A program made the translations under genes and the position numbers. A stretch of 64,000 nucleotides of DNA from Apostichopus japonicus (taxonomy: Eukaryota > Echinodermata > Holothuroidea > Aspidochirotida > Stichopodidae). Every line of letters begins with the position of its first letter. Positions within the stretch are counted from its first letter, which is position 1. The notes under the pieces were generated by a model. That model searched no databases and was not told the origin of the DNA. It worked only from the letters and a program-made list of their open reading frames with translations. The DNA lies in contig NC_092563.1 of assembly GCF_037975245.1 (NCBI RefSeq), forward strand, positions 8,307,501 through 8,371,500. The letters run 5' to 3'. Positions 7,825 through 64,000 of this stretch are shown here, one piece after another.

Positions 7825-8184
7825 CAAGGGCGTAGGAACCGGGGGGGCTGGGGGGCGCCAGCCCCCAGTGAAAAATATGGGGGGCGGAAGTATCGTTCTG
7901 CCCCCCCGCTCCGCAAGTCAGAAAACCCCTTTTTCATTTCCAAATGAGAAAAAAATCTCATTTGAAGCACCAAATTGCATCTAAGGCCAGGTGAAAATGC
8001 AAAATTCTTTACAAAATGGAGTGGGTGTTGAAGTGTGCTATATTGCACCGAATTGCATCTGAGGCCACCTGGAAATGCAAAAAAATTCCAAAGGGGAGGG
8101 GGACACCCCTTCCCCAAGACCCCTCCCCCAGGCCGGCCATCAGTCTTCAGCCCCCCCACTCAAAAGTACCTTCCTACGCCACTG
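7825..8184. mobile_element. Short hAT-like element with perfect target duplication
   Basis: The left end CAAGGGCGTAGGAACC and the reverse complement of the right end (CAGTGGCGTAGGAAGG) form imperfect inverted termini. The 8-mer CAGTATAG lies directly outside each end (7817-7824 and 8185-8192). The 360-bp body contains two partial copies of the TTGCATCTGAGGCC / GGGGAGGGGGACACCCC module seen in several other elements of the window. The G- and C-rich blocks produce incidental open frames. Confidence 0.85.
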
Positions 8185-23787: not shown

Positions 23788-23802
23788 TCTGTCAATTCCC
23801 AA

Positions 23803-25244
23803 AGATGTCCCTTTTTGTTTAAAATCCTGATGTTCAAGGTCTAATATAAGGCAAATCCAAATGGTTTAATAATATTAAGCAAATCCAAATCGTTTATATC
23901 AGAGTGTCAAGTTATTAAATATAAGTGGAGCGTCTCTCCCATTATAATTGTCGCTGCTTTATCCAGTTAGTTTGTCAAAATGAAAATCGTTTCCCAACTC
24001 CGACATCGGTTAATGGTATATGTGCCAAGTTTCATTCCCTTTGATTGAAATATATGTTACTACATATATGTTTCTCAGAAACACAGACAATGATGATTTG
24101 CTGTTTATTCCACACCGTAGCTGTGCAATGTGAGGATTGGTGTGATCATGAAGCATGTTTAACCAGCTGTATATATATATATCAATGAGGAAGTTAGTTT
24201 GTCCTGCTGTTACACTCGGAAGGTTGCAATGTTGTATACAGTAAAACTTAAAGGAGCCTTATTGAGTCATATTTAACCAATATATTCACTTTGATTTATA
24301 AATGCTGATATCATATAATGTATGTCATTCTCATTGACTACTGTTATTATCATGTCAAATAATTAAGTAGATTAGTAATAAAATAAAAGAAAGCTCTGTT
24401 TTCTGGACGAAAACGACTGTGAGAATCGGATGAAATCGGATACCAAATACACCCTTGGTAAACTTCATTTGGAGAAATGTCAGAACGGTGTCTTCATTTA
24501 CTTTTCTGACTTTGAGATATCTTATCAACCATCTGACTGTTTATTCAATAGGCTGAGCAACCATAAAACTGACTGCTTTATGATGACCACTGAAGTGAAG
24601 ATCAAGTCATTCGTCCATGTACAGCACTTGAACTATGATACAGTATGATACAGTTGGCAACTATGATACAGTTGGCAACAAATGATTGTTGCCAAATTGC
24701 ATGCAAACATCATACATAATTCCAGCAGAGATTCCATGACTCTGGTCTATATTGCTTCCTGTGACATTTACTACTGGTAAGAGCGCAGCTTATATCATTC
24801 ACACTGTGTCATTGTAGATCCATAATGGCAGGATTCGAGGGGCCATCCAGTCACCACCAACATTTGGCATGCATTAGATTGTAGGTTTTGCCTGGTTTCA
24901 TTTCAAATAATCACTAATTTAGCCAAACTACGCTCCCGAATTTTCCAGTTTGCTCTTTGTATATGTGATTATATACTTACATATAAAACTGTTTGGGCTA
25001 TGAAATGCTAAGTATTGAATCAATTCCTTAGACTTGTGCTCTCCATGGCCTGTACTTTATGAAAGCAAAAGTTTATTATATAGCAAGGCACTTAAGATTT
25101 TATGAATTGTAATCATCATGTTAGATATTAAAAGTCAGTAGGTTTTTAATTACTTGCTGACCGAACTAATAATGCAGTGAATATCAGGTTTGATGAATAT
25201 AGATTTTCAAGCAGGGTGATCAGTTCAGTTCAGTTCAGTTAATA
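23803..25244. other. Region upstream of gene A, no gene recognised
   Basis: Would contain the gene A promoter and 5' untranslated region, but no convincing TATA box or upstream exon could be picked out. A 72-codon open frame at 24430-24648 (plus strand) has no recognisable domain. Confidence 0.35.
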
Positions 25245-28450: not shown

Positions 28451-28964
28451 GTATGGCAAGCCGTTTTACTTTTTATTCGATATTTGATGATATCATCAAA
28501 TATTTGGTGATATCAGCAAATAATTGTTGATATCATCAAATCATTTGATGATATCATCAAATAATTGCTGATATCAACAATTATTTGCTGATATCACCAA
28601 ATAATTGTTGATATCAGCAATTCATTTACTGATATCACCAATTCATTTGCTGATATCACCAATTCATTTGATGATATCAACAATTATTTGCTGATATCAT
28701 CAAATAATTGGTGATATCAGCAAATCATTTGATGATCTCAACAATTCCAACATATCACTTATTCATTTGCTGATATCAACAAATCAATTGGTGATATCAG
28801 TAATTGATTGAATGATATCAGCAAATGAACCGTACATATCACTAATGCATGCTTTTGTTGATATCACCAATTCATTTGTTGATATCACCAATTCATTTGA
28901 TGATATCACCAATTCATTTGCTGATATCAGTAATTCAACCGTGACGATGATATCAGTAATTCAA
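28451..28964 (+). repeat. Foldback left arm: GATATC-centred 20-21 bp repeats
   Basis: About 22 units such as TGATATCACCAATTCATTTGC. Each is centred on the palindrome TGATATCA and linked by CAAAT/ATTTG segments that can pair with each other. Confidence 0.85.
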
Positions 28965-29058
28965 CCGTGACAGCCCGTCTTACAAGCATGCGCACACGAT
29001 GTCAGTGTACTAAGCAGTACATGCAAATGACAGTGACGAGACAACAGGGTACGGGTAG

Positions 29059-29385
29059 CGTTACTTTCACCTTGGCGATTGCGGTAAACTTGATGAAGCA
29101 CAGATCGTTATTGACAGAAGTTCTCGGATTTTGGGCGAAGTAGAGAGGCTCTTAACTGGCAATGATAATGCTTCTGAAGCGAAAGAACGTCTTCTCCAAG
29201 GCAAAGAGAAATTTAGAACGGATTAACGCGAGCATCGATGAGCACAGGTTCAATTCAATAGCAGCTGTGCACGATCAGCTCCTTTCCATCGCAGATGCAC
29301 AGGCACAGCCAGACGGAACGTTGCATGCCATGAGCGGCGATCATGGGGGGGGGGGGCATATTTTAGGTGGGGGATATAGTATCTA
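29059..29385 (+). pseudogene. Possible frameshifted coding remnant just inside the foldback left arm
   Basis: One frame reads KLDEAQIVIDRSSRILGEVE and continues to EAKERLLQGKEKF before a stop. The next frame takes over with LERINASIDEHRFNSI and AVHDQLLSIADAQAQ. The charged, helical composition on both sides of a single-base shift suggests one decayed protein. No family is recognised. Confidence 0.3.
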
Positions 29386-29711
29386 ATATCCTCCTCCCCA
29401 ATATTTGGTGGCATAGTGTTTTTGTGTGGCTATAAATAGAAACTAATGCATGAGATTATTTATCCAAATCCTATTTGGCGGTGGCTAAAACTTCATCCAA
29501 CACATGCGCTATGAGGTAAATGACTCTTCGTCGTCGTTTCTGTGACCTGTGACCGTATAGCATGTTGTCACTCATGATTATTATCATAATGTCTGTACAT
29601 CTCTTGTGTATGAGTGTAAGTACGTACAATCATATATATGATCCACATCGATATGGGTTCACTGGGTCACTGGGTTTCCATTTGGCCTGTTTCCTACAAG
29701 ATTTCTAACCG

Positions 29712-30327
29712 CAGGCACGTAGCCAAGTAGGGGGGGGGTGGGGCGAAGATCTTTTTTGTCTTTTTTAACGATATCGAAGTTTTATATTTATAAAATTTGT
29801 ACACAATAAATTAACTGTGTCTGAATTTTCGAAAATTCCCTGACCAACATTCTTCATCATACTTCCCTCTACTGACCGGTCTGTTAGGGGTTGAAGTTTT
29901 TTTTTTATATATTGGTTGACCATAGATGAAATTTTGTGCAACATTTATGGATATGTTTTGAAGTGAATTTATAATTCAAATTCTGAACAAATAATGGGCT
30001 TCAAACCTTGAAAAGTGGGGCTGACGGGTATTGTATAGGCCGTTACGTAGTATTACCTTCCAAAGCAATGATCCACAGGAGAAGCGATGAGGTCGAACAT
30101 GATGTGTGACTGGTGACAATCTTGAAAAGGTTATGGATAGAAAAAAAAACTATTGGGAAAACTTGATTCTCAGGCCAAAGTATACAACTTGTTGATCATT
30201 TTCAAGCCCGAGAAGTGCCATTTCCTGTGATCTGGGGGGCTATCAAAACCAGAAATTTTCTGTGGCGCTCCGCTTAGATAGTAATTCGATCGCGCCCCCG
30301 GGTTAGAAAATCCTGGATACACGCCTG
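29712..30327. mobile_element. hAT-like element, copy 1 of a family
   Basis: Left end CAGGCACGTAGCCAAG; reverse complement of the right end CAGGCGTGTATCCAGG. The interior (ACTGTGTCTGAATTTTCGAA, TGATCCACAGGAGAAGCGAT) is also found at 39690-40254. It contains a partial hairpin module near 30210-30285. No 8-bp duplication is visible; the right flank has become a TA microsatellite. Confidence 0.65.
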
Positions 30328-30337
30328 TATTTATATT

Positions 30338-30462
<125 letters not shown>

Positions 30463-30792
30463 AATTTAAAATTTTAATTTGGGGTGGGGGAAATGTTACG
30501 CGTCTGCACCCAAGTTAAAGTCCCCCCACCCCAATATTTGAAACAAATCTCCCGCCACTGGTTGCAGCCACCATCGGGGAGCCAGTCTAATGGACACAGT
30601 TCCCAGCCTGTTTCTGTCGCCCGCCGACCAGGGTATACTTTTTACATTTTGGTATTTCATATTGAGCTACTTAACCACCCCGATATTATTTTTCATAGGT
30701 TTATAGGCCTGGCCTACTCGGTGCTTGCCCAATGTTTGTCCTCCCTGTCACAAGTGCATGAGTAGCCACGGTACTTCTCCCAGTGGCAGTAG

Positions 30793-31880
30793 CAGTGGCG
30801 GCGGAACCGGGGGGCTTGGGGGCTTGGGGGGGCTCAGCCCCCCCAATAAAAAAGTTGAGGGGGCAAATGCATGATAAGCCCCCCAATATTTACCAAGGCT
30901 CCGAAACGTGCATCTGCCCATTTTCCAATGCATACTTGTCGATCTGTCCGATGCACACTATATAGGTGTAATAATTTTAGTAATTGCTGGGGGACCCTCG
31001 GCCCGTCCCCTGGCTATAGACCACATTGTCACCCCAACCGCGTCTTCACGCCCCGTGAAAAGTGGAAGCAGTGAGTGTGAGTACCAGTAAGCGTAACACA
31101 ACTTCGTCTTAGGCCAATGACTTGCCTCATTTCAGCCAGTTCTCCAACATCCCCTTACTTAGTGGCGGAGCGTCCATATATACAGTCAGGGGGCGGATGC
31201 CCCCCCCCCCCTGACAGACTCAAATGGACTGCTGGCGCCCTTTTCAGCTTTTCACTATACTTTTTACTTATTCGCTATTATGACTATTTTATTGCGCTCT
31301 CATATACCTATTGACATTTGTCATATTCTGTTGGTGTAATTTTCCGACAAAATGGCGACGACACCTATTTATTCTCCGTTTATATGCAAATTAGCAAGGC
31401 CCGGAAAGGGTAATTTCCTGCAATCTAGGGAGTATCTTTACTCAAAATTTTTCTGTACGCTCCGCGCCAACCTGTGGTGGCGCTCCGCTTAGATAGTGTC
31501 GAGAGCGCCCCTACAGACCATTTTTGCCCCCCCCCGACCAATACCCCTAGCTCCGCCACTGTCCTTACTACACTCAAAAACGTCTTTGCGAGTACACTAC
31601 GAGTATAATAGCTACTCTCTTAAAACACCATCGAATATACAAATTACAATGTTTTTACAGACTTTTACGTGCAATCTGAGAAATTGCAGATTTGAGACCC
31701 ATATTTTAGGGCTAGGTATTCGCAGCATAAAACACACGGGAAGTGCCGTGTCCGGCCATCTGGGGGTTTGAAATAACCCAAAATTTTCTTGTACGCTCCG
31801 CGCCAACCGATGGTGGCGCTCCGCTTAGATAGTCTCCACACATTAGCCCCCCCAATAATTTTTCCGTTCCGCCGCGCCTG
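30793..31880. mobile_element. Composite hAT-in-hAT element, copy 1
   Basis: Outer ends CAGTGGCGGCGGAACCGGGG and, right, CCGTTCCGCCGCGCCTG. The inner element (31160-31561) has ends TAGTGGCGGAGC and GCTCCGCCACTG with flanks CCCTTACT / TCCTTACT. The 8 bp left of the outer element are GGCAGTAG and the 8 bp to the right are GAGAGTGG, so the flanks do not match. Both outer and inner parts carry a hairpin module (31403-31500 and 31735-31832). Confidence 0.85.
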
Positions 31881-33274
31881 GAGAGTGGTGGGTATGGGGG
31901 GGGGGGGGGGGTGGGGTCGACATCGTAAATGTTTACTTATGGATGGATATGCGTCAAATGTAGTGATGCTTCTAGATGAGAAACATCTCAAACACTTTCT
32001 ATTGATATCTGATAAAAGGTCAAGAAAGGAACTTCGTCTTTTCAAGTAAATTGTGACGTATTAACATTCACAGAATTGTAGTTTAGGTTATTTGATTAAG
32101 TCATGCTTGCATAAATTATTATTAGTGTTGGTTTGGTTTAAGTTTACATTTGTAACAGTTTGTTTTAGTGTGGAAAACGAATCTACTTGAAGTTCTTTAT
32201 TTGAGATTCATAAGGAAGGCCCATGTCTTATGGATACTCTCAAACATAACGTGTATTTCTGATACGGTAAGGACATTTCTGATACTACGAAGCTACAAGC
32301 GATAGGCTTCATTCCTTTCCAAATACATATTTAGAATAGATATAACTACACGCTACACAAATATTCGGACACCTTAGTGTGTAAAAAGAGTGATTTCAAT
32401 CACGTTAGTCTACCTTAACCCCCCAGACTGTTCAAAGTGCTTGAACCCGGAAAGAAGAGCCATTATCCCTATTGAGACCATGACAGTGTGAACGTACTTT
32501 AAGGATCAATTCGAATTCCTTCAAGTTTCTTTTATTATGGTCAGACAAATTACCCATGATTATGGCAAACTTTAGACAGTCGATATTGTGTTGTGGAAGA
32601 TTAAAATGTTCGGACACTGGAAAACTGGTTTTATTGAGTCTGATTGTGCTTTTATGACATATATGGCGGCTTAAGGAGTTTTTAAAAACATATCTAATTT
32701 ATAAGAAATTTCACCGAAAATTAAGGAAGAAATGAATCTGTATACAAACGCGGTTTTTGTTGTGATTACTGTAGGTAGTACGGTACTGTACGGAGCGTGG
32801 GTTATATCGCAATCTGCAATTGCGAAAATGACGTCACGTTCGAGGCTGTTCAAATCATATTTGAGATGTCCATTATTAACGATTAAACCTCGTTTCTCTG
32901 TCAAACGCAACATTAGCGTTCTCATACTTTGATACTTTGACTACATGTTTGAAAAATTAATTATCATTTTTTTAGGTTAATTTTCAGGGCTACCAGACAA
33001 TCCTTTTAAGCTGCTTTCCACTTAGAAAATTGTTTCCTACCTCGTTTTCTGTTGTAGAATATACGCGTTGACGAAGATTGGCTGCCCTCGAAAGAAAGGG
33101 TTTCAATTAAACCCAAGTTTTAAAAGTTAAAATGATACCAAGAACGTTTTTTGGTAAACATCCCAAACTTTGAGGATTTTTCATTTTAAAATAAGGCAAA
33201 TTACTCTCCTCAAATTTTTGGTACAAACAGCTAGGGTGGCACTATATCTCTTCTAGAAAGAGAACCCAGATATT

Positions 33275-33985
33275 TTCAAAATGACGCGTTTTGAGTTATC
33301 GGCTGTCATATACGACCTCTTTTGTACATCAGAGCAAGTTTACTACCTCCTAAACTAATATTGAGAAATGCTAGAACCATGAAATTTGTAAAGGTGTAAG
33401 AAATTTATACTTATAATTAAAGTAGAAGACCCTCACAGCTCTAACATGGTTACGTTGGTATAACTTTGGCATCAAAACCCCTTCCTCATGCTGAATCGCA
33501 GCATGAAATAGCAACTTTAGAGCTGCACAACTTGCAAATATATTATAGGAAAGCATTTTTATCATTATTTTGCATTGTTTGTACTAGACATAATAGCCTC
33601 TGAAAGAATCAAGTACCCTAAAGCAATGATTTAGGAACAATTTAAAATTTAAAATATCACATATTTCAGTTGTGAAAGATACCAAAATCGTATATTTTGA
33701 AACAGTTAACCTAACTCCACAAGACAATGTTTTTATAGATTATTTTTTTAAATTCATATTCTTTGGGATAGACTCTATAGGCATCTGTAATAGGAAGGTA
33801 GAAGAATATTTAATTGCTGAGAAATGAGACCTCAAAAATCAAGAAAATGCCAAAATGACACGGTGGGGACAAATTGTGGAATTTCAAGGTGTGATAAATC
33901 GGCCAATTTTGAAGCAATGTAACTGAAATTGTCAGAATATGCTTATTTTATGGTGTTCCAAGCATACAATAAATTTGGGGATCTT
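33275..33985. repeat. Dispersed repeat of unknown type, copy 1
   Basis: About 700 bp homologous to 55905-56600. Shared stretches include CATCAAAACCCCTTCCTCAT, ATGCTGAATC, TTATACTTATAATTAAAGTA and TGATAAATCGGCCAAT/TGATAAATCAGCCAAT. No open frame, no termini. Confidence 0.75.
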
Positions 33986-34938
33986 TGAAAAATGTCGAAG
34001 TACAAGATACTCCAAAATTGGTGATTTGATACGGTATGGAATGAACCTGATATGATTCTACCTGCATGGTAAAGTATTAATTTCTTGTATCATGGCAGAG
34101 ATGTATCGTTATCAGAGAATCGCTGATAATCTGAAAACGATCCACCGAAAGTGCAGTGACTCACTCAGTGAGAAATATAGAAATATCATGTCACCTCTAA
34201 CTTGGTATAAGATTCCACATATCAATATGATCAGAACCACACGGGGCATGTTACCAAGGTCATCTACGTTAAATTAATATCATTGTAACTTGATTCTAAT
34301 TTAACTCAGGGTTTTATTGAGGAAGTTCGATTGTTTTTTCCTTGTTGCATATGACCACACTTATCACTTCCTTAAGAATTCCTTAACAAATCTTGTCTAG
34401 AGGGGCTTTCTCCTACTTATACCCCCCTCCCCGCCCCTACCCCACCCCACTCCGCCAGACTGACTCACAGAATAGTATACAACAAGACAAATCCTGGTGT
34501 ACAGTACACATAAATTCATAACTTTGTTTGTTATACAATATTGTTATACAATATTGTTTGTTTCAAAAGCTGCAACTATAACTACACTTTGCATCTAAAC
34601 AGCCCGATTTTTACCTAATTTATTTTTAACGGGAAGCGGAGATCTCCCTTCTTCAGACCTCTCCTATCTCCTTATCAAAGATGGTGGTTGCGCGCCTGCT
34701 CTTTCTTGATAAATTATCTTAAAACCCGGAAATATTGCTTTGTGCTTGGGCTTGTAGTTATTATTACAATGTTGCCAGGCAATGATCAATCAAAAGTTTG
34801 GCAGAGTCAAATATTTGAGGTGGGGAAGGGGAGGGGGAGTGGGGTGTAGTTACACTAATAGGGTTGTTAACATCAGCTAATTCACCAAATCGATGAAATA
34901 TCAGCTTCCAAAACATTACTCGGAATCATAAAATGACT

Positions 34939-35888
34939 CACTGGCGGATCCAAGGGGGGGGGGCCAAAAGGCCATGGCCCCCCCAAAGGTGAGCCAAAAA
35001 GTGTTTCCGAACATCCGCTAAATCATATGATTGGAAATTAAAAAATCGAGAGGAATAGCAGTGGTAGACTAGTCTAAACCTTTTCGTTTTCTGGTTTAAA
35101 ATTAAATGCAGAGCTCCCAACTGACCCGCAATTCGCGGGAATTAGACCCGCATTCTAACACCCAAACCCGCTGACCCGCACAAGCGTCCGAAAAAACCGC
35201 ATTGTAATTGTCAAGTATACATAAAAAAATTTGCATCAAATTTTGACTTAGCAACCATCATTTCTTTAGCATTTAGCATAATAGAGTATAAAACCTCCTT
35301 TACAGCATCATTTGAACCTCAAATTAGCCTATATTTCTTTTCATTGGGGCGAGCAGCGAACATTTTCATGCCACGGGAAAGAATGAATTATCACCTACTA
35401 TTCAATTTATTGATGTTACACACAGAAAAAATGCATATTTCTCAGAAAATTTTGGGTGACAAAAGCCTTTCTAAGTGCCACCATTTTACATGTAGGCATC
35501 ACCAGGATTCCAAAAAAAATCAAAAGGGGGAGGGGAACACCCCCTCCCCTTATACCCCTCCCGCAGGACAGCGATTCGTGGCATGGACCAGCATTTGCCT
35601 TCTCAAGAGTTGGGAGCTATGTAAATGTATGAGCATGAGGATTTACAGTTTAACACCGTTTTGCAGTTACAGGCTGGTTGTAAGAAATTTATAACCTATG
35701 AGAAATAAAATTTCTTGAGAAAGATGATCCCAACTTTGTTTCACAAATATTTTAGAAAATTACACCTGGGTAACATTTTTTTTTAGAAGTAAATTAACAT
35801 CACCATTGTACACTTTTGTTGCACCAAATTGCATCTGAGGGCATTCAGCAATAGAAAATTTTCAAAAGGGGAGGGGGCACCCCCTCCC
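34939..35888. mobile_element. CACTGGCGGATCC element, right-truncated copy
   Basis: Starts CACTGGCGGATCCAAG and is nearly identical to 46629-47638 for about 950 bp. At 35889 it is cut by composite element copy 2, and its right end does not reappear on the other side. Confidence 0.8.
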
Positions 35889-36959
35889 CAGTGGCGGCGG
35901 AACCGGGGGGCTTGGGGGGGCTCATCCCCCAATGAAAAAGTTGAGGGGGCAAATGCATGATAAGCCCCCCCCCCCAATATTTACCAAGGTTCCGAAACGT
36001 GCATCTGCCCATTTTTCAATGCATACTTGTCGATCTGTCCGATGCACACGTATACTATATAGGTGTAATAATTTTAGTAATTGCTGGGGGACCCTCGGCC
36101 CGTCCCCTGGCTATAGACCACATTGTCACCCCAACCGCGTCTTCACGCCCCGTGAAAAGTGGAAGAAGTTAGTGTGAGTACCGGTAATCGTAACACAACT
36201 TCGTCTTAGGCCAATGACTTGCCTCATTTCAGCCAGTTCTCCAACATCCCCTTACTTAGTGGCGGAGCGTCCATATATACAGTCAGGGGCGGATGCCCCC
36301 CTCCCCTGACGGACTCAAATGGACTGCTGGCGCCCTTTTCAGCTTTTCACTACTTTTTTACTTATTCGCGATAATTGACTATTTTATTGCGCTCTTATAT
36401 ACCTATTGACATTTGTCATATTCTGTTGGTGTAATTTTCCGACAAAATGGCGACGACACCTATTCTCCGTTTATCTGCAAATTAGTAAGGCCCGAAAGGG
36501 TGATTTCCTGCAATCTAGGGAGTGTCTTTACTCAAAATTTTTCTGACCGCTCCGCGCCAACCTGTGGTGGCGCTCCGCTTAGATAGTGTCGAAAGCGCCC
36601 CTACAGACTATTCTTGCCCCCCCCCTGACCAATACCCCTAGCTCCGCCACTGCCCTTATACTACACTCAAAAACGTCTTTGCGAGTACACTTCGAGTAAT
36701 AGCTACTCTCTTATTAAAACACCATCGAATATACAAATTACAATGTTTTTACAGACTTTCTCGTGCAATCTGAGAAATTGCAGGCTTGAGACCCATATTC
36801 TAGGGGTAGGTATTCGCAGCATAAAACACTCTGGAAGTGCCGTTTCCGGCCATCTGGGGGTTTGAAAAAACCCAAAATTTTCTTGTCCGCTCCGCTCCGC
36901 TTAGATAGTGTCCACACATTAGCCCCCCCCCCAATAATTTTTCCGTTCCGCCGCGCCTG
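35889..36959. mobile_element. Composite hAT-in-hAT element, copy 2
   Basis: Same outer ends as copy 1; inner element 36257-36652. The left 8 bp are CCCTCCCC-like sequence belonging to the truncated CACTGGCGGATCC element. The right 8 bp (36960-36967) are GGCAGTAG, identical to the left flank of copy 1 rather than to its own left flank. Confidence 0.85.
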
Positions 36960-37151
36960 GGCAGTAGTGGTACTGTGTAACTTAGTCCACTTTCCCCTCC
37001 CGTTGATCGCTATAACCAAGGCTGAAATTAACCGCGCACCAGGCGCCTTTCTGTGCCCGCTACCAGTCAAACAGCGCCCTTAAGACCCAAAAAGAATGCC
37101 GTTGATGGCGCTCGTTTCTAATTCCTTTTTGTAGACGTTGGTTCGATACGC

Positions 37152-37570
37152 TTGAATTACTGATATCAGCAAATGAATTGGTGATATCAGCAAATGAATT
37201 GTTGATATCAGCAATTCCAACATATCGCCAATTCAATTGCTGATATCAGCAAATCTTTTAGTGATATCACCAAATCATTTCATGATATCAGCAATTCCGT
37301 TCCTCATATCACTAATTAATTAGTGATATGTCGGAATTGTTGATATCAGCAAATGATTTGCTGATATCATCAATTCAATTGCTGATATCACCAATTCATT
37401 TGCTGATATCAGCAAATATTTGTTGATATCAGCTATTATTTATTGATATCAGCAATTATTTGGTGATATCACCAAATGAATTGGTGATATCAGCAAATGA
37501 ATTGGTGATATCACCAAATATTTGATGATATCATCAAATATCGAATAAAAAGTAAAACGGCTTGCCATAC
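37152..37570 (-). repeat. Foldback right arm: GATATC-centred repeats
   Basis: Inverted counterpart of 28451-28964 with the same outer 60-odd bases and the same 20-21 bp unit type. The units themselves are diverged in order and number. Confidence 0.85.
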
Positions 37571-37784: not shown

Positions 37785-38877
37785 CAGTGGCGGCGGAACC
37801 GGGGGGGGGGGGGGGCTTGGGGGGCTCAGCCCCCCAATGAAAAAGTTGAGGGGCAAATGCATGATAAGCCCCCCCCCAATATTTACCAAGGCTCCGAACG
37901 TGCATCTGCCCATTTTTCAATGCATACTTGTCGATCTGTCCGATGCACACGTATACTATATAGGTGTAATAGTTTTAGCAATTGCTGGGGGACCCTCGGC
38001 CCGTCCCCTAGCTATAGACCACATTATCACCCCAACCGCGACTTCACGCCCCGTGAAAAGTGGAAGCAGTGAGTGTGAGTACCGGTGAGCGTAACACAAC
38101 TTCGTCTTAGGCCAATGACTTGCCTCATTTCAGCCAGTTCTCCAACATCCCCTTACTTAGTGGCGGAGCGTCCATATATACAGTCAGGGGGTGGATGCCC
38201 CCCCCCCTGACGGACTCAAATGGACTGCTGACGCCCTTTTCAGCTTTTCACTACTTTTTACTTATTCGCGATTATTGACTATTTTATTGCGCTCTCATAT
38301 ACCTATTGACATTTGTCATATTCTGTTGGTGTAATTTTCCGACAAAATGGCGACGACACGTATTTATTCTCCGTTTATATGCAAATTAGCAAGGCCCGGA
38401 AAGGGTCATTTCCTGCAATCTAGGGAGTATCTTTACTCAATAATTTTCTGACCGCTCCGCGCCAACCTGTGGTGGCGCTCCGCTTAGATAGTGTCGAAAG
38501 TGCCCCTATAGACCATTCTTGCCCCCCTGACCAATACCCCTAGCTCCGCCACTGCCCTTACTACACTCAAACACGCCTTTGCGAGTACACTACGAGGAAT
38601 AGCAACTCTCATAAAACACCATCGAATATACAAATTATAATGTTTTTACAGACTTTAACGTGCAATCTGAGAAATTGCAGGCTTGAGACCCATGTTTTAG
38701 GGGTAGGTATTCGCAGCATAAAACACTCTGGAAGTGCCGTTTCCGGCCATCTGGGGGTTTGAAAAAACCCCAAATTTTCTTGTACGCTCCGCGCCAACCG
38801 ATGGTGGCGCTCCGCTTAGATAGTGTCCACACATTAGCCCCCCCCCCCCCAATGATTTTCCCGTGCCGCCACGCCTG
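37785..38877. mobile_element. Composite hAT-in-hAT element, copy 3
   Basis: Outer ends CAGTGGCGGCGGAACC and GCCGCCACGCCTG; inner element 38158-38554. Flanks TCTAGCGA (left) and CCTTCGGT (right) do not match, so this copy is also missing its original target duplication. Confidence 0.85.
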
Positions 38878-41456: not shown

Positions 41457-41533
41457 AGTACGAGTACGCGAGCGTTCACACAAACATACATACACATGTA
41501 TGCAAACATACATACACTCAAACATACATACAC
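41457..41533. repeat. CA/ACAT-rich microsatellite (left flank of the nest)
   Basis: ACAAACATACATACACATG-type sequence that stops at the left end of the large nested insertion. Similar sequence resumes at 45828. Confidence 0.75.
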
Positions 41534-42623
41534 CAGGGGCGGATCCAGGGGGGGGGGGCCGACCCGGCCCCGGCCCCCCTTTTTGGAAATCAGTTGCTTT
41601 TTTTTATGTGGGAGTACTTCAAATTCCTAATAGGCATAACTTGGTGAAAGAAAAGCCTAATATATATCCAGCTGCTCTTCCAAGAAACGCTATCGTTTTT
41701 ATTCCAAATTTGAAACTAAGGCAATTATCAGGCCTACGCGACATCACGTATTAATTAGAAACGGCTCAGTACTATAGTGCTGACTATTACTGTCAGGGAA
41801 AATCAATGCACAGTTAGCAAGTATATCATAATTATCTGAATGAAAGGGGGTGTAGGCGGTTTTACACTATCTAACGCAACGTAGTCGCCAAGAACCTGAA
41901 GTATTTTTAAGGGAGGGCCCGAGGAACATGAACTTATAGCATGCTCCTCGTGGTGAAACATAATTGCACCTATTAGGTGAATTGAGTGTACTGTTAATAG
42001 TAGGAGAGACTAGTGTAGGTTCTTATGACCAACTAGACCGGTTTCTGTTCTCAAACTTTATAGGAGGAGCTTCATCAGTAGTAGCCTTTGAATATTTTAT
42101 ATTCGGCCTGGGCGTCTCGTTCTCAAAATGCATCTATTTTCTGTGCACGAGTTTTTATGGACTCATAGTGCAGCTATAAGAGCATCTAAAAGAGCTTCGT
42201 GTGAACCTTGAGAGTCAGCTGATTCTTCGTTAGTAAGAAACCTTGAGTTAACAAGTAAATCTTTGAGATTTTGGGCCCTTTTGTAGGCTAGAATCGGTTC
42301 TTTTGGAAACAGTTTGGATAATTCCGCGTGCAGGGGCGTAGCGAGCGGGGGGTGGGGTGTGGGGGTGTCACACCCCCAATAATTTGGTCGCTGTCGGCAA
42401 ATTTTGGGTCTGTCGGCAAAAGGAGAAAAGGTGAAGAGAGCGGAAGGGGAAGAAAGAAGGAAAGCTGAATAGAGAAAAGGAGAACGGGAGCTTCTTTATC
42501 GGTTATTTCGATTTTCCAGTTCTTCATCTGATAAACTCATTCACCAATCCAATCACCCGACGCCTGCAAGTTAAAAACCTCTCGGCAAATAACTGATAAT
42601 GTCACAGCCGTCAGTATAGATAC

Positions 42624-43717
42624 CAGTGGCGGCGGAACCGGGGGGCTGGGGGGGGGGGGGCTCAGGCCCCCAATGAAAAAGTTGAGGGGGCAAATGCATG
42701 ATAAGCCCCCCCCCCCAATGTTTACCAAGGCTCCAAAACGTGCATCTGCCCATTTTTCAATGCATACTTGTCGATCTGTCCGATGCACACGTATACTATA
42801 TAGGTGTAATAATTTTAGTAAATGCTGGGGGACCCTCGGCCCGTCCCCTGGCTATAGACCACATTGTCACCCCAACCGAGACTTCACGCCCTGTGAAAAG
42901 TGGAAGCAGTGAGTGTGAGTACCGGTAAGCGCAACACAACTTCGTCTTAGGACAATGACTTGCCTCATTTCAGCCAGTTCTCCAACATCCCCTTACTCAG
43001 TGGCGGAGCGTCTATACAGTCAGGGGGCGGATGCCCCCCCCCCCCCAACGGACTCAATTGGACTGCTGGCGCCCTTTTCAGCTTTTCACTACTTTTAACT
43101 TATTCGCGATTATTGACTATTTTATTGCGCTCTCATCTACCTATTGACATTTGTCATATTCTGTTGGTGTAATTTTCCGACAAAATGGCGACGACACCTA
43201 TTTATTCTCCGTTTATCTGCAAATTAGCAAGGCCCGGAAAGGGTCATTTCCTGCAATCTATAGAGTATCTTTACTCAAAAATATTCTGTACGCTCCGCGC
43301 CAACCTGTGGTGGCGCTCCGCTAAGATAGTGTCGAAAGCGCCCTATACAGACCATTCTTGCCCCCCCCCCAACCAATACCTCTAGCTCCGCCACTGCCCT
43401 TACTATACTCAAAAACGTCTTTGCGAGTACACTACGAGTAATAGCTACTCTCTTAAAACACCATCGAATATACAAATTACAATGTTTTTACAGACTTTCT
43501 CGTGCAATCTGAGAAATTGCAGGCTTGAGACCCATATTTTAAGGCTAGGTATTCGCAGCATAAAACACTCGGGAAGTGCCGTTTCCGGCCATCTGGGGGT
43601 TTGAAAAGACCCTAAATTTTCTTGTACGCTCCGCGCCAACCGATGGTGGCGCTCCGCTTAGATAGTCTCCACGCATTAGCCCCCCCCCCCAATAATTTTT
43701 CCGTTCCGCCGCGCCTG
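42624..43717. mobile_element. Nest level 4: composite hAT-in-hAT element, copy 4 (intact flanks)
   Basis: Ends CAGTGGCGGCGGAACCGGGG and CCGTTCCGCCGCGCCTG. The perfect 8-bp duplication ATAGATAC lies at 42616-42623 and 43718-43725. This is the only one of the four composite copies with matching flanks, and it shows that the composite moved as one unit. Confidence 0.92.
42998..43396. mobile_element. Nest level 5: inner hAT-like element
   Basis: Ends CAGTGGCGGAGC and GCTCCGCCACTG. The perfect 8-bp duplication CCCTTACT lies at 42990-42997 and 43397-43404. The 399-bp body contains a hairpin module at 43229-43330 and the stretch ATTTTCCGACAAAATGGCGA. Confidence 0.92.
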
Positions 43718-45827
43718 ATAGATACTGTAGCCAGGCTCAGCTAGACGAGTGCCAGAATCGCCGGCAACTCAGTGAAAGAAATGGAATTAAAGGCTTCCGT
43801 ATAGGCCGCAGCCCATGAGTCTTGCTATCGTGTGACAACGTGTTGTTATTATCCTCTGTTCAGAATGACGTCATCGCAGATGTCATTCGTTCTCCGTGGA
43901 AAACTTAAGGACACGGCTCACGAATTGTACACAATTTTTAACGTTTCTCGCTTGTATATCAATGAATGTTGTTATTACTCATTACCGGAAAGTTTTCTGA
44001 ACATTTTCATCACGAAGTTTCACTATTTCAACGATCGGTGAGAAGAGAAAACACAGTTCGATAATTGGTCCCAATTAATTCTTCTTCTGCCGACTGCCAT
44101 AAAAATAATATCGAAATGGAAATTCTACGGTGCCAAATTTGACTTAAAATATGCACCAGATTGCATCTAAGGACGTTTCAAAACTAAAAATTTTCCAAAA
44201 GGGAGGGGGACATCCCCTCCCCTTAGACCCCTCCCCCATTTCAGTCACATCTTCCAGATCCGTCGGCAAATCAAATCCTCCACACCCCCCAACAAAAAAA
44301 AACTTCGCTACGCCCCTGTCCGCGTGTTGCGAGATTAAGTGCCAATGTTTAAAAAGTACATTTTTCAAATGCGTGGTTTTGATATGGGGTGTATAGGTAA
44401 GCTTGAACACCATTGGTGGTTCCTTTTGTTTAGGTTTGGTAGTGAGGTATTGCCCACGGTTTTCAAATTTTATGCCTTTCGTGGCTGAGGCAATTTCCTC
44501 TTTCTTATAGTTACGGAGTAATAGTTTCTCTGTGAGCGCATTCTTTTTCTGTAAGAAATCAGTCTCATTGTTACATAGACGTGCGTATCGTAAGACTTCC
44601 CCTTTAATAAAGCCTTTAAAAGTTGCAATTGGGTGTGCAGAGTTTCTGTCGAGGTATTGGAAGGTTTCCGTGGGTTTGGTGTAGACTTTGGTGTCTAATA
44701 ACCCATTGGTTTCAAACCTTGGACCTTTGAAGATTTTCAAATCTAGGTATGTTACCTCGGTGTGTAATATTTCTACCGTAAACTTTAAGAAGCGGTGAAT
44801 TTCATTCAACCTGTTTACTAGTTGTTCAAGTTCCTGAGGTGAACCGTCGTAAAGCAATAGAATTTCATCTCTATAGCGGAGCCATTTTAAGATTTTATTA
44901 TCTGTCGGTAAAATCTGGTTTTCCAGTCTATGCATGACGATATCAGAGATATCCGGAGAGGCTTGGCTACCCATGGCGCAACCGATCTTTTGTAGATAGA
45001 ATTGGTTATTGAACTCGAAACAGTTTCTTGTTAAAAATAAGTTCAATTAGTTTGCGCATGGATATGGAAGATATTTTATTTATTCCATATTCGCTTTTTT
45101 CCGCCTTTTCATAGACTTCTTGACATATATCTAATGCCTCCTCTTGGGGAGTATTGGTATACATGGCGACGACATCGAGTGTAGCAAGTACTACTGCTTT
45201 TGGTAACGGGGTGGCTTCCACAATTTTCAGAATGTGATTTGTGTCTTTCACATAGGTGCTTTGTTTTAATACAATAGGAAGCAAGAAATAGTCCACAAAT
45301 TCCGATATTTTTTCGGTCGGTGATCCGTTTCCGCTTATTATCGGGCCCTCCCTTAAAAATACTTCAGGTTCTTGGCGACTACGTTGCGTTAGATAGTGTA
45401 ATACCGCCTACACCCCCCTTTCATTAATAAGTATATCATAATTATCTCATTGAATATATCTTGTTTTATGTTTTTTCTTGGGGTGAATCTGGTGTCATAA
45501 TTTTCGCGCAAAAGAAAAAACGAATCGACGCAATAATAGTGTATCCATTGTACATGCACTGTTGAGCGTTGTTAAATATGTGTCTATCGAGAAAAAATAT
45601 GTGCACAAAAAAGCATGTCTGCGACGTTTCTGGTTTTTCTAGTTTTTGGCGAAATGTTTCACCATTTTGCATCTAAGCACTCACAATTAACCAAAAATTT
45701 CCAAGGGGGAGGGGGACAACCCCTCCCCCTAGACCCCTCCCCCAGGACGCAGATCACTAAAGTGCTACCATCGGGATGTCGGCCCCCCCCCCCTTTCTCA
45801 AAATCCTGGATCCGCCCCTGTGCACCC

Positions 45828-46628: not shown

Positions 46629-47638
46629 CACTGGCGGATCCAAGGGGGGGGGGCCATGGCCCCCCAAAGGTGAGCCAAAAAATGTTTCCGAACATCCGCT
46701 AAATCATATGATTGGAAATTTTAAAAAATCGAGAGGAATAGCAGTGGTAGACTAGTCTAAACCTTTTCGTTTTCTGGTTTAAAATTAAACGCAGAGCTCC
46801 CAACTGACCGGCAATTCGCGGGAATTAGACCCGCATTCTAACACCCAAACCCGCTGACCCGCACAAGCGTCCGAAAAAACCGCATTGTAATTGTCAAGTA
46901 TGCATAAAAAAATTTGCATCAAATTTTGACTTAGCAACCATCATTTCTTTAGCATTTCGCATAATAGAGTATAAAACCTCCTTTACAGCATCATTTGAAC
47001 CTCAAATTAGCCTATAATTCTTTTCATTGGGGCGAGCAGCGAACATTTTCATGCCACGGGAAAGAATGAATTATCACCTACTATTCAATGTATTGATGTT
47101 ACACACAAAAAAATCCATATTTCTCAGAAAATTTTGGGTGACAAAAGCCTAAGTGCCACCATTTTACATGTAGGCATCACCAGGATTCCAAAAAAATTCA
47201 AAAGGGGAGGGTGACACCCCCTCCCCTTATACCCCTCCCCCAGGACGGCGATTCGTGGCATGGACCAGCATTTGCCTTCTCAAGAGTTGGGAGCTATGTA
47301 AATGTATGAGCATGAGGATTTACAGTTTAACACCATTTTGCAGTTACAGGCTGGTTGTAAGAAATTTATAACCTATGAGAAATAAATTTTCTTGAGAAAG
47401 ATGATCCCAACTTTGTTTTATAAATATTTTAGAAAATTACACCTGGGAAACATTTTTTTTAGAAGTAAATTAACATCACCATTGTACACTTTTGTCGCAC
47501 CAAATTGCATCTGAGGGCATTCAGCAATAGAAAATTTTCCAAAGTGGAGGGGGACACCCCCTCCCCTTAGACCCCTCCCCCATATCACTCTAATGCCACT
47601 TTGGCCCCTCCCAAACAAAGGCCCTGGATCCGCCAGTG
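46629..47638. mobile_element. CACTGGCGGATCC element, full-length copy
   Basis: Left end CACTGGCGGATCCAAGG; reverse complement of the right end CACTGGCGGATCCAGGG. TA lies outside both ends (46627-46628 and 47639-47640), which allows a TA target but could be chance. Two copies of the TTGCATCTGAGG / GGGGAGGG module lie at 47165-47250 and 47497-47584. Non-coding. Confidence 0.75.
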
Positions 47639-61700: not shown

Positions 61701-63079
61701 ATATGAAGAGTAAACCTGAATTATAATGACTCAAATCCAGTTACTTCTGTGATGGTCTATGATATATGAAGAGTAAAACTGAATTATAATGACGCAAATC
61801 CAGTTACTTCTGTGATGGTCTATGATATATGAAGAGTAAAACCTGAATTATAATGACGCAAATCCATTTACTTCTGTGATGGTCTATGATACATGGAGAG
61901 TAAACCTGAATTATAATGACGCAAATCCAGTTACTTCTGTGATGGTCTATGATATATGAAGAGTAAAACTGCTCGTTGAGTCATCCTTTCTTGTTTATGT
62001 TTTGCTGCATTATTCTTGACATGCCACGTTAGTACATTGTAAAGAAAACCCCCCAAAAGAACACACAGAAACAAGGGATAATAGTAAGCTAGTGTGAACT
62101 GTTTAGTCAGTATGATGTATGACGCCATGTCTGATTCTGGAGAGGCTACATTGTTATGTAATATGTGACTTGTGACATACATGACAGACAATTCCCTCCT
62201 CTAGCTATCTCCCCCACTGCCACCCTTTTCAGTGTTAATCGCAAAGTATCATTACGCAGATCTTGCCCATGAGAAAATCCGCCCTAGATAGGCTACCCCA
62301 CTTTCTCCGTAAAAACCGGGGTACCATACCCGACCTTGGTATCCAAACAATGGCTCATTACTTTTTATGGGAAAATTGGGGTATCTAGGACGGTTTTTTT
62401 TATAGGCAATCTGATCTGCTTTATGTTTCATAAACTTGAAATATTCCATCCCATTTATTTCTGAGCATGAGTATAGGGAATTTTGTACATGGAAATATTA
62501 ATTGATGACAGTGATATACATGTATATTCATAAAGTCAACAATTTCAGACAGGAAAAAGATTATGAAAGAGTAACGCATACATGTTATGGATATTGGTTT
62601 ATTGCACTAGGCCTATGCAGTCTCTAAGAAATCTAACACGGCTTAAGTTTAAATAATTATGACAAATTAGTTCAATCAAATATTTTGATACTTACGTTCC
62701 ACCATTGAAAGATGTCCTGGGATATATTAAAGTTGTCTTTTGTCATGATAGGATTCAGAAATGGATCGAAGTTTTCCTCAAACCAACCCAAGCTAGAGCT
62801 GTTTGCCCTCGGGAGGTATCTACATTCGAGTTTTTTACTCTCAGATTTATTTCCGCCCTGGTTTAGTTTCTCTACCTTATCAATAACGTTTGCTGATGAA
62901 GTTGTATTGCTTGAACCGTTCCGCAAGGATAAATTGTACTCCCCATCAGCTAGTTTTCTTTCCTGATGGGACGGCACAGAATTTTGAAGTTCCGCAAAGT
63001 AAAAACCCACCATGAACCCGAACAGTATCAAAATGTAACTTTGAAAAAGATAACAAACACACGATTTAATTTTCGTCAT
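53071..63079 (-). CDS. ST3GAL1/2-like: Gene B: ST3GAL1/2-like beta-galactoside alpha-2,3-sialyltransferase, six coding exons
   Basis: Tandem paralog of gene A with the same predicted role: a Golgi type II GT29 enzyme adding sialic acid to galactose. Coding exons (minus strand): 63079-62696, 59084-58894, 57295-57122, 56795-56753, 54999-54880, 53253-53071, giving about 364 aa. I chose the ATG at 63079 because it reads MTKIKSC, parallel to MRKIKEC of gene A, directly before the anchor YILILFGFMVGFYF. An in-frame ATG at 63160 would add 27 residues and cannot be excluded. The stem is longer than in A, with WFEENF and FQWWN. Motif L begins CAVVGNSGNLK; motif S runs NPELMW to STGLLSVFFGLHICDE. Motif III is HYFE, and motif VS is HDSNAE. 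Internal exon lengths and phases match A. By my count identity to A is 34/40 in exon 5 and 39/60 in exon 6, so the duplication is not recent. Confidence 0.88.
53963..54540. repeat. Segmental duplication, copy in gene B intron 5
   Basis: Same-orientation homolog of 50247-50760 (shared TTCTCAGAGGCCTTTTGTCT-like, GGAAAATTGCACGGAGGAC-like and GGCAGCCAGCTGGTTGAGTT stretches). Both copies are followed by a (TA)n tract and then by ATCGACAAGGA. Confidence 0.8.
54535..54597. repeat. (TA)n microsatellite
   Basis: TA run in gene B intron 5. Present at the same relative place as the TA tract at 50760 in the duplicated copy. Confidence 0.95.
54880..54999 (-). CDS. ST3GAL1/2-like: Gene B coding exon 5 (sialylmotif S)
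   Basis: 120 bp, acceptor TTTTCAAAG, donor GTGAGC. Encodes NPELMWHIKHQWGLGKGRW and STGLLSVFF, ending CDE. The Cys expected to pair with the motif L Cys is present. Confidence 0.9.
55694..55766. repeat. (TA)n microsatellite
   Basis: TA run in intron 4 of gene B, preceded by two copies of ATTACCTGCAGTGTACAGC. Confidence 0.95.
55905..56600. repeat. Dispersed repeat of unknown type, copy 2 (intron 4 of gene B)
   Basis: Homolog of 33275-33985. Near 56540 it carries an extra GGGAGTTGTCCATAACTACT-type palindromic insert flanked by repeated GTTGAAGCA. Confidence 0.75.
56753..56795 (-). CDS. ST3GAL1/2-like: Gene B coding exon 4 (43-bp mini-exon)
   Basis: Between the acceptor GTTTTTCAG and the donor GTAGGT. 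Encodes RRSIVHPIAADKDK. Same length and phase as gene A exon 4. Confidence 0.82.
56905..57020 (+). repeat. tRNA-derived SINE-like unit (family C)
   Basis: GTGCTGTGACTGAGTGG resembles an A box and GGAGGTTCCGATACCCGGCC a B box, at tRNA-like spacing of a long-variable-arm type. A short body follows. Single copy in the window, in intron 3 of gene B. Confidence 0.5.
57122..57295 (-). CDS. ST3GAL1/2-like: Gene B coding exon 3 (end of motif L)
   Basis: 174 bp, acceptor CTTTCTTTTCAG, donor GTTAGT. Encodes MNNCP..DVGSRTTHYIAYPNS and a linker. Two residues shorter than the gene A exon. Confidence 0.88.
57575..57690. repeat. (ACAT)n / (ACAC)n microsatellite
   Basis: Flanked by two copies of a CTC(T/A)(T/G)GATACTGACACA-like sequence, so the array may have grown between short direct repeats. 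It lies in intron 2 of gene B. Confidence 0.9.
58020..58470. repeat. About 100-bp tandem repeat with internal TA tracts
   Basis: GTCTCCTTCCATGTGTAAGC, then AGTAATAAATCCCATTTTAA and ATATGATATATA, recur about four times. One unit has expanded into the (TA)n tract 58322-58376. Confidence 0.8.
58627..58705. repeat. (TA)n microsatellite
   Basis: TA run in intron 2 of gene B. Confidence 0.95.
58894..59084 (-). CDS. ST3GAL1/2-like: Gene B coding exon 2 (sialylmotif L, first part)
   Basis: 191 bp, acceptor TTTGCATTCAG, donor GTAGGA. Encodes SVRCAVVGNSGNLKKSTYGK, with the invariant Cys and GNS. Ends two bases into the Arg codon finished by exon 3. Confidence 0.88.
59085..61604. other. Gene B intron 1, first part
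   Basis: AT-rich intron sequence without recognisable genes or families. Confidence 0.5.
61605..61975. repeat. About 63-bp tandem repeat, nearly six units (gene B intron 1)
   Basis: The unit contains CAAATCCAGTTACTTCTGTG, ATGGTCTATGATATATGAAG and AGTAAAACTGAATTATAATG. Units differ by a few substitutions. Confidence 0.9.
62696..63079 (-). CDS. ST3GAL1/2-like: Gene B coding exon 1 (tail, membrane anchor, stem)
   Basis: From the ATG at 63077-63079 to FQWWN followed by the donor GTAAGT, phase 0. The stem is rich in Ser/Asn with NXS/T sites. The frame is open upstream of the chosen ATG. A TTTCCAG just upstream could be an acceptor of a 5' noncoding exon. Confidence 0.82.
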
Positions 63080-64000
63080 CCCTGGAAAGTTGGTGGACGG
63101 CCTGATTGTATTCATCCACATAAAATTCATCAAGCTTTCTTGGTCCTGGATGGATTGCATCACACTTTGAAAATATTCCTCTCTGAATAGACTTCCTTGC
63201 TATTTATTATAACCAAAAAACCATTGTTAAGCCGTGCGTTACATGCCATCCTTCAGTGCCATAAACCTATATACATTATGATATACCATTTTATGGACTT
63301 TGATGTTTGCTCAAGCTGTGTTTTTTATCACCCAATTCCTAAACAGACTTATTTGAGATTGTTCTTCAGTTGAATTCATACATATTTATGAAGTTCGTCG
63401 GTGTATTTTGATTCGCTCGATCTGTGTGCTAATAATCTAGCTAAGATTTCAATATCACTATACTGTACATAACAAGGTGACAAGTAAAAACATTATACTT
63501 ATCAAATATCTTTGCAACACGGAAAATGATTCTGAAACTTCAAGTCAAAGAAAAAATTAGAGGAGAATGATTTGTTGAGAGTATACCTGGCAATAACATG
63601 AGATATGGCCGAAAATTATATTAGAAAAAAAAAGTAACAAGCTATAGTGCTGACCAATCCGGCAAAATGCGTGGCTTACAATCAATTGCTCCATTGACTA
63701 AAAAAGTAACTAAATTTGTCCCATCCTGAAGTTGCTAGGGCCTAAATTAGAAGAGTCCATCTTGGTATATCTTGCTCACCACAAGATGGTTGATTTGTTG
63801 GACTATTGTGGCAATTGCAAAGTCACCCATCATGGGTGTAAATTTGAGCTAGAAGAGACGAAAGTTGAGTTAATTCCCAATTAATGCTTGTACCAGCCCT
63901 TGTCATGTCTAATCTTCCCATTTTTACCCATTCATGAATTTTGTTTAAAAGATTCCAATCACCATGATCAATTCTCCTGATCATATTCTACAACACCTGT
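63080..64000. other. Upstream region of gene B
   Basis: Expected to hold the 5' untranslated region and promoter of gene B. No convincing promoter motif or upstream exon was recognised. Confidence 0.4.

Follow-up and report, generated by a model that had tools for sequence, protein, structure and literature searches.

Analysis of a 64,000-nt stretch of the Apostichopus japonicus genome (NC_092563.1, positions 8,307,501 to 8,371,500; the whole stretch is called the window) revealed a nest of five transposable elements, designated L1 (outermost level) to L5 (innermost level), with X[Y] denoting Y inside X. The nest was compared with the species' own 671.6-Mb, 35-contig assembly. This comparison indicates that the nest almost certainly consists of two composite non-autonomous DNA transposons, L1[L2[L3]] (unit 1) and L4[L5] (unit 2), and that it reflects two local insertions, not five. 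DNA searches of the genome scored the best 40 candidates each, so that the resulting counts are lower bounds; counts of exact sequence patterns are complete.

The outermost element L1 (41534 to 45820, plus strand) is a hAT-like (hAT5-like) non-autonomous element with a perfect 16-bp terminal inverted repeat (TIR; CAGGGGCGGATCCAGG), and its copies in the genome carry 5-bp duplications. L1 is the outer shell of unit 1 (3185 bp without L4[L5]) and supplies its mobile ends. L2 (41838 to 45428, minus strand), an internal part of unit 1, is a 5'-truncated Penelope-like element (PLE), a retroelement with a reverse transcriptase (RT) fragment (RVT_1) and a 19-bp target duplication. L3 (42331 to 44318, plus strand) is hAT-like and is also internal to unit 1. 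L4 (42624 to 43717, plus strand) forms the shell of unit 2 (1094 bp with L5) and is a local insertion in L3, and the hAT-like L5 (42998 to 43396, plus strand) lies inside L4, with which it was inherited. The CAG...CTG ends of L1 are also found in L3, L4, and L5. Without their inner parts, L1 to L5 measure 677, 1595, 886, 687, and 399 bp, respectively. An earlier note on this DNA had described the five nested levels with a pair of coordinates for each; re-reading of the sequence in the window reproduced the levels and all five pairs, and the assignment to hAT-like and Penelope-like classes was supported.

Exact target duplications, which the earlier note had claimed for four of the five levels, were also read in the sequence (19, 8, 8, and 8 bp). 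L2 is flanked by the exact 19-bp duplication AAGTATATCATAATTATCT (41819 to 41837 and 45429 to 45447, both inherited), which occurs in the window at those two places only. L3, L4, and L5 carry the 8-bp target site duplication by which hAT elements are recognized, in each case as an exact pair: TCCGCGTG for L3 (42323 to 42330 and 44319 to 44326), ATAGATAC for L4 (42616 to 42623 and 43718 to 43725), and CCCTTACT for L5 (42990 to 42997 and 43397 to 43404). Two random positions of the window share the same 8-mer at a rate of 0.00011 and the same 5-mer at a rate of 0.0017. Exact 8-bp pairs at predefined ends are therefore far beyond chance, and the scars are real. Pairing of the 41 left-type with the 32 right-type hAT-like ends of the window, with up to one mismatch allowed in the duplication, returned five pairs, all of them exact: L3, L4, L5, 30793 to 36959, and 7825 to 8184. 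The last of these is a 360-bp hAT-like element with the 8-bp duplication CAGTATAG. The boundary of L3 was confirmed independently, since the minus-strand RT frame runs into the TCCGCGTG copy in equal phase on either side of L3. L1 has no 8-bp duplication in the window; its flanks, TACAC (41529 to 41533) and TGCAC (45821 to 45825), are identical at four of five positions.

To characterize unit 1 elsewhere in the genome, 27 other copies were read, comprising 20 of the 39 other matches to an L1 probe (L029 to L048) and 7 of the 39 other matches to an L3 probe (L002 to L008). Parts of L1, L2, and L3 were found in nest order in all 27 copies. In the 20 L1-probe copies, the succession L1-L2-L3-L2-L1 is represented by parts of these elements in that order, and several of the copies show deletions or additional insertions; the seven L3-probe copies contain L1-L2-L3-L2 in order, the stretches stopping before the right part of L1. 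A single alignment spanned the L1|L2 junction in 26 of the 27 copies, the L2|L3 junction in 25, the L3|L2 junction in 24, and the L2|L1 junction in 20 (the other seven, L002 to L008, stop too early). The empty L4 site was spanned in 25 copies, and the remaining two (L035 and L044) are deleted there. A pattern search found the exact 24-base L1|L2 junction at 97 places genome-wide, the window included, and the reversed-pattern control at none. A string search located both PLE duplications in 15 of the 28 copies examined (the 27 plus one further locus, L060). It located both L3 duplications in 13 of 27, of which 10 were exact and the others deviated by one or two bases; where no string was matched, the stretch read was too short, or the region was deleted or too diverged to be recognized. 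Private insertions were seen in other copies too, for example, an L3-family element with CCTCGTGG twice in L031 and an insertion with CATCGAGT twice in L030. Against a consensus of the copies read, the unit 1 pieces of the window show differences at 21 of 2857 sites (0.74%; 15 to 25 copies per piece, long homopolymers masked), a divergence that is biased low because the consensus copies were the best matches.

Analysis of unit 2 revealed the same behavior. Four full-length copies of L4 are present in the window, the one in the nest and copies B (30793 to 31880), C (35889 to 36959), and D (37785 to 38877), all on the plus strand, and L5 occupies the same position in all four, which indicates that L5 arrived here inside L4. 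Beside L5 in copies B to D, the left CCCTTACT is exact in all three, whereas the right one is exact in one copy and has a base change or a 2-base insertion in the others. The four copies differ pairwise by 3.6 to 5.2%, mostly by private changes. In the genome, the best 40 of 2361 candidates for the L4/L5 junction (window included) all matched nearly in full, over 197 to 200 of 200 bases. L4 without L5 was found in all of the best 40 of 2152 candidates, ten of which were read. One of the ten, L053, is flanked by its own 8-bp duplication, TATGTAAC, and nine share one common host flank (host X). Compared with L049, the eight other host X copies are alike over 272 to 282 bp on the left (94 to 99%) and over 103 to 130 bp on the right (88 to 97%). 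This common flank indicates that L4 also multiplied inside yet another element, a third composite. At least three composites were thus seen in the genome: L1[L2[L3]], L4[L5], and host X with L4. A GC-rich subterminal module of about 90 bp with an inverted repeat is common to several hAT-like families in the window (44154 to 44238, 45660 to 45744, 8040 to 8142, 35479 to 35569, 35817 to 35889, 47157 to 47252, and 47493 to 47582), and in nine of the ten L4-without-L5 copies read, L4 lies within such a module.

Copies B and C of unit 2 are carried by a 9.1-kb element (28452 to 37569) with inverted ends starting with TATGGCAAGCCGTTTTAC and subterminal arrays of a GATATCA-type repeat of about 20 bp (28480 to 28937 and 37155 to 37539). 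Its flanking 6-bp duplications read CGCCCG here and CGCCCT at a second copy on contig C3, the only other one read to its ends (ends and duplications were identified by eye). The part from 30593 to 37159 is 97.6 to 98.9% alike at three other loci, in one of which (L074) it was found in one piece only to 36898. The left flank of copy B and the right flank of copy C share the 8-bp sequence GGCAGTAG, on the outer sides only (30793 to 36959). Copy C cuts a relative (34939 to 35888) of the full element at 46629 to 47638, and the last 73 bp of this relative are gone. The H/C junction (35789 to 35988) was spanned at 19 of 40 scored places (window included), crossed in part at 6, and matched on one side only at 15; at the three loci read (L073 to L075), the repeat includes the flanks. 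A local macrotransposon B...C (30793 to 36959) was rejected on account of the shared H/C junction and the repeated flanks, which mark an ancestral event. The B...C arrangement resembles the outcome of an ancestral macrotransposition, or of gap repair, within the 9.1-kb element.

The L3/L4 junction behaved differently from the other junctions of the nest. Among the best 40 of 1484 candidates, only the window matched it at full length; the alignments of the other 39 end at base 100 or 101 of the 200 and cover the L3 half only. The internal junctions are therefore not all private to this locus: L1/L2, L2/L3, and L4/L5 are shared, and L3/L4 alone was seen at no other of the 40 places scored. Misassembly at this spot cannot account for junctions that are found again at many independent places; for the private L3/L4 junction, the exact 8-bp duplication is the single line of evidence. 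In the course of events that is by far the most probable, the hAT5-like L1 was struck by the Penelope-like L2, and L2 was then struck by L3, a hAT element with 8-bp duplications. The whole stack L1[L2[L3]] retained its outer ends and multiplied as one element, presumably with hAT transposase supplied in trans. L4 was struck by L5, and L4[L5] likewise multiplied as one element, each composite probably going back to a single founding copy. At this locus, unit 1 inserted into a CA/TACA microsatellite, and unit 2 later inserted into the L3 part of unit 1. Directly observed among the elements of this history are the recurring internal junctions, the locus-specific 5-bp duplications with unrelated flanks, an L3/L4 junction that is unique among the scored places, and surviving ancestral stages.

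The evidence on how unit 1 moves came from 21 copies in which both L1 ends were readable (L029 to L048 and L060). An exact in-register 5-bp duplication was found at the L1 ends in 18 of them, GTATA occurring in two and the others once each. The L1 family accordingly duplicates 5 bp, and the scar that seemed to be missing at L1 had been sought at the wrong length; an 8-bp target duplication, as is typical of hAT elements, was seen in one copy, L038. If the copies of L1[L2[L3]] were segmental duplications of one locus, and not a transposed composite, their common internal order and common scars would be explained as well. This is extremely improbable, since the 18 copies carry exact 5-bp flanking duplications of their own sequence and since the flanks beyond L1, compared over 600 bp (over 176 bp on the left side of L060), were unrelated: among the 21 copies and the window, similarity was detected in 1 of 231 pairs, away from the element ends. 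Unrelated flanks indicate that the copies are not segmental duplications. Levels 1 to 3 are one 3185-bp composite element that moves by its L1 ends. The clean boundaries and the exact duplications at four levels also suit a history of five successive insertions at this locus with the outermost element as the oldest, but three of the four level-to-level junctions (L1/L2, L2/L3, and L4/L5) recur at many other places, and such a history is hardly credible. The "clean relative chronology" of family activity that the earlier note had read from the nest could not be upheld, because parts of L1 to L3 occur together in all the unit 1 copies read, L4 and L5 occur together, and L3/L4 is the one junction without a second occurrence among the 40 places scored. 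The succession L1, L2, L3 holds for the history of one ancestral element; it fails as a chronology of this locus. As the insertion of L5 into L4 occurred in another source element before L4 came here, the nest does not give the age of L5 relative to that of L1 to L3.

The earlier note had further proposed alignment of each level to its other copies, with a search for uninterrupted outer elements. This alignment was carried out and changed the reading: empty sites were found for L3 and L5, and no uninterrupted L1 was found. With an empty-site probe for the PLE in L1, none of the best 40 of 405 candidates (window included) crossed the join, and all 40 scored matches had their first base no more than 5 bases from where the 19-bp duplication begins. 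Probes of this kind recovered the empty sites of L5 in L4 and of L3 in the PLE, which indicates that the method works where empty sites exist. For L3 in the PLE, the best 40 of 511 candidates all spanned the site uninterrupted, which also supports the boundaries of L3. Four of these places were read: L059, L061, and L062 lie outside L1, and L060 lies inside L1. L060 has the structure L1[L2] without L3, with AAAAA on both sides, and probably represents the L1[L2] stage that preceded L3.

Several points weigh against this history. The first step, L1 alone, was deduced from TIRs and duplications only, as no uninterrupted L1 was found. In L060, both L2 and L1 are rearranged in ways particular to this copy. 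Three of the 21 copies lack the in-register 5-bp duplication (L029 and L034 match if shifted, and L038 has 8 bp). With 40 of 1484 candidates scored, a second locus with the L3/L4 junction is unlikely but keeps a small probability. Finally, L060 might be the product of a secondary precise excision of L3 and would then give no independent proof that L2 came before L3. hAT elements do excise, and the L060 site, TCCGCGGG, departs from the duplication by a single base, so that a modest probability has to be granted to this event. Against it, hAT excision usually leaves footprints, and three of the four places read carry a PLE that lies outside L1 and also lacks L3 at the site. Moreover, all 40 scored PLE matches cross the L3 site, although some of them possibly lie inside L1, and the position of L3 within L2, with an 8-bp duplication of L2 sequence, orders the two elements anyway. 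An L1[L2] ancestor thus remains the preferred identity of L060.

The L3 family was also studied outside the PLE. A pattern count revealed 353 L3-type left ends in the genome that are not preceded by G and that are therefore not at the PLE site. In ten L3-type relatives that were read (L063 to L072), both ends were found in eight, all eight with exact 8-bp duplications. Their interiors are unlike that of L3 and carry two to five tandem subterminal modules of about 143 bp between conserved ends; none of the ten was an L3 standing alone with the interior seen in the nest. The divergence of 3.6 to 5.2% among unit 2 copies, compared with 0.74% for unit 1, hints that the family of the inner unit is no younger than that of the outer unit, but mutation rates and sampling differ between the two values, which were not used as proof.

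The Penelope-like part of unit 1 was analyzed for domains and termini. RVT_1 was detected in L2 by Pfam with 26.5 bits (E = 6.4e-6), below the cut-off of 29.6, and in the L2 relative L059 with 37.6 bits (E = 2.4e-9), above the cut-off. The RT motifs of L2 are presumably of the PLE type. No Pfam match to a GIY-YIG endonuclease domain was obtained in three pieces of the window or in five open frames of L059 and L060. The 5' truncation of L2 would have removed an endonuclease located at the N terminus, where permuted PLEs have theirs. No hammerhead ribozyme was found in the window by Rfam at the gathering score, although the motif may lie in parts lost from the truncated L2. The region 41838 to 42330 gave only a miRNA family at E ≤ 1 (E = 0.75, far under the gathering score), and a CTGATGA...GAAAC string seen by eye in the PLE, which had been considered a hammerhead candidate, was dropped for lack of Rfam support. 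A search of an RT piece against solved structures with phmmer gave weak matches only, the best (E = 0.23) to the group II intron protein LtrA. Searches of the PLE protein against viral and prokaryote (genome-contig) collections, and of the L4/L5 module pattern against the viral collection, revealed no relative.

In addition to its target duplication, L2 has inverted ends resembling the inverted pseudo-long terminal repeats (pLTRs) of PLEs. The 3'-end arm (41839 to 41922, minus strand) is matched by an inverted copy of the element's own 3' end (45341 to 45425, plus strand), which is joined to the RT region at the 4-bp microhomology CCGA; the RT sequence is uninterrupted at this point in L059. 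The 80-bp arms are 98% identical; over about 85 bp, roughly two substitutions or differences at the ends, together with one indel, set them apart. As L2 was copied later inside unit 1, these differences do not date this locus. Inverted pLTRs with palindromes at the joint in Adineta are interpreted as self-priming in the available part of PMC3846280, and in vitro the Anolis PAc PLE protein cuts both strands of the target and extends them, according to the available part of PMC11167929. By analogy, either route, self-priming or dual-strand priming, could give the structure of L2; we lean toward dual-strand priming with microhomology joining.

Comparison with known systems revealed that the components of the nest are of ordinary kinds (hAT-like, hAT5-like, and Penelope-like), yet the nest clearly exemplifies composites that were nested and then amplified as units. 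In the accessible text of PMC12730594, canonical hAT elements usually have 8-bp duplications, and the hAT5 group, which is filed within hAT, has 5-bp target duplications. L1 resembles hAT5 in its CAG...CTG ends and 5-bp duplications but is a non-autonomous element whose interior is made up in part of two foreign elements; no transposase was seen, Pfam having been applied to the PLE frames of the nest. L3, L4, and L5 resemble the canonical non-autonomous hAT elements of that text in their CAG...CTG ends and 8-bp duplications; unlike these, they are mostly parts of composites in the copies read, and the L3 relatives have tandem modules of about 143 bp. L2 shares an RT piece, 5' truncation, an inverted 3'-end copy, and a target duplication with the PLEs with inverted pLTRs described in the parts available of PMC3846280 (Adineta vaga) and PMC11167929 (Anolis PAc). 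It differs from the Adineta PLEs in the length of its duplication (19 bp, compared with the 8 to 10 bp given there), and it differs from PLEs in that neither GIY-YIG nor hammerhead was detected in the L2 pieces tested and that this copy is now spread by a DNA transposon. The transposition in transposition (TinT) approach, as outlined in the portion available of PMC3014933, orders family activity from element-in-element insertions. Here, in contrast, several such events are copies of a few founding events, and counting each nest as independent would mislead. PIF/Harbinger-like elements of Medicago truncatula are likewise TIR elements with nested transposons, but in the excerpt available of PMC2213677 they are single elements with nested insertions, whereas the present nest is a multicopy family. 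Searches of open-access text on nesting did not reveal this exact arrangement, and no claim is made that it is unreported.

Beyond the transposable elements, the window contains a tandem array of a 56-bp repeat (13750 to 15129; 24.5 copies, 95% match). Two minus-strand open frames (23437 to 23865 and 62672 to 63199) are alike by eye and have no Pfam match above the cut-off. The frame at 23437 to 23865 gave a weak match to alpha-2,3-sialyltransferase structures (E = 0.0082), and the two frames may be exons of a sialyltransferase gene family.

This locus demonstrates that dating by nesting can fail. Although the nest has five levels with readable scars, only two of the events that it records were local, because most of the scars travelled with their elements as these were copied. 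The locus also presents a DNA transposon that multiplies a broken retroelement as cargo, as documented by the 97 exact L1|L2 junctions; copy counts of such a retroelement would overstate its own activity. It is tentatively suggested, at somewhat less than even confidence, that in this genome nesting may be a way by which new mobile elements are produced. If struck internally, a non-autonomous hAT element would keep its ends and could found a multicopy family with a retrotransposon and a transposon as cargo, and composites could then enter composites, with insertions possibly favored or tolerated in the shared GC-rich subterminal modules.

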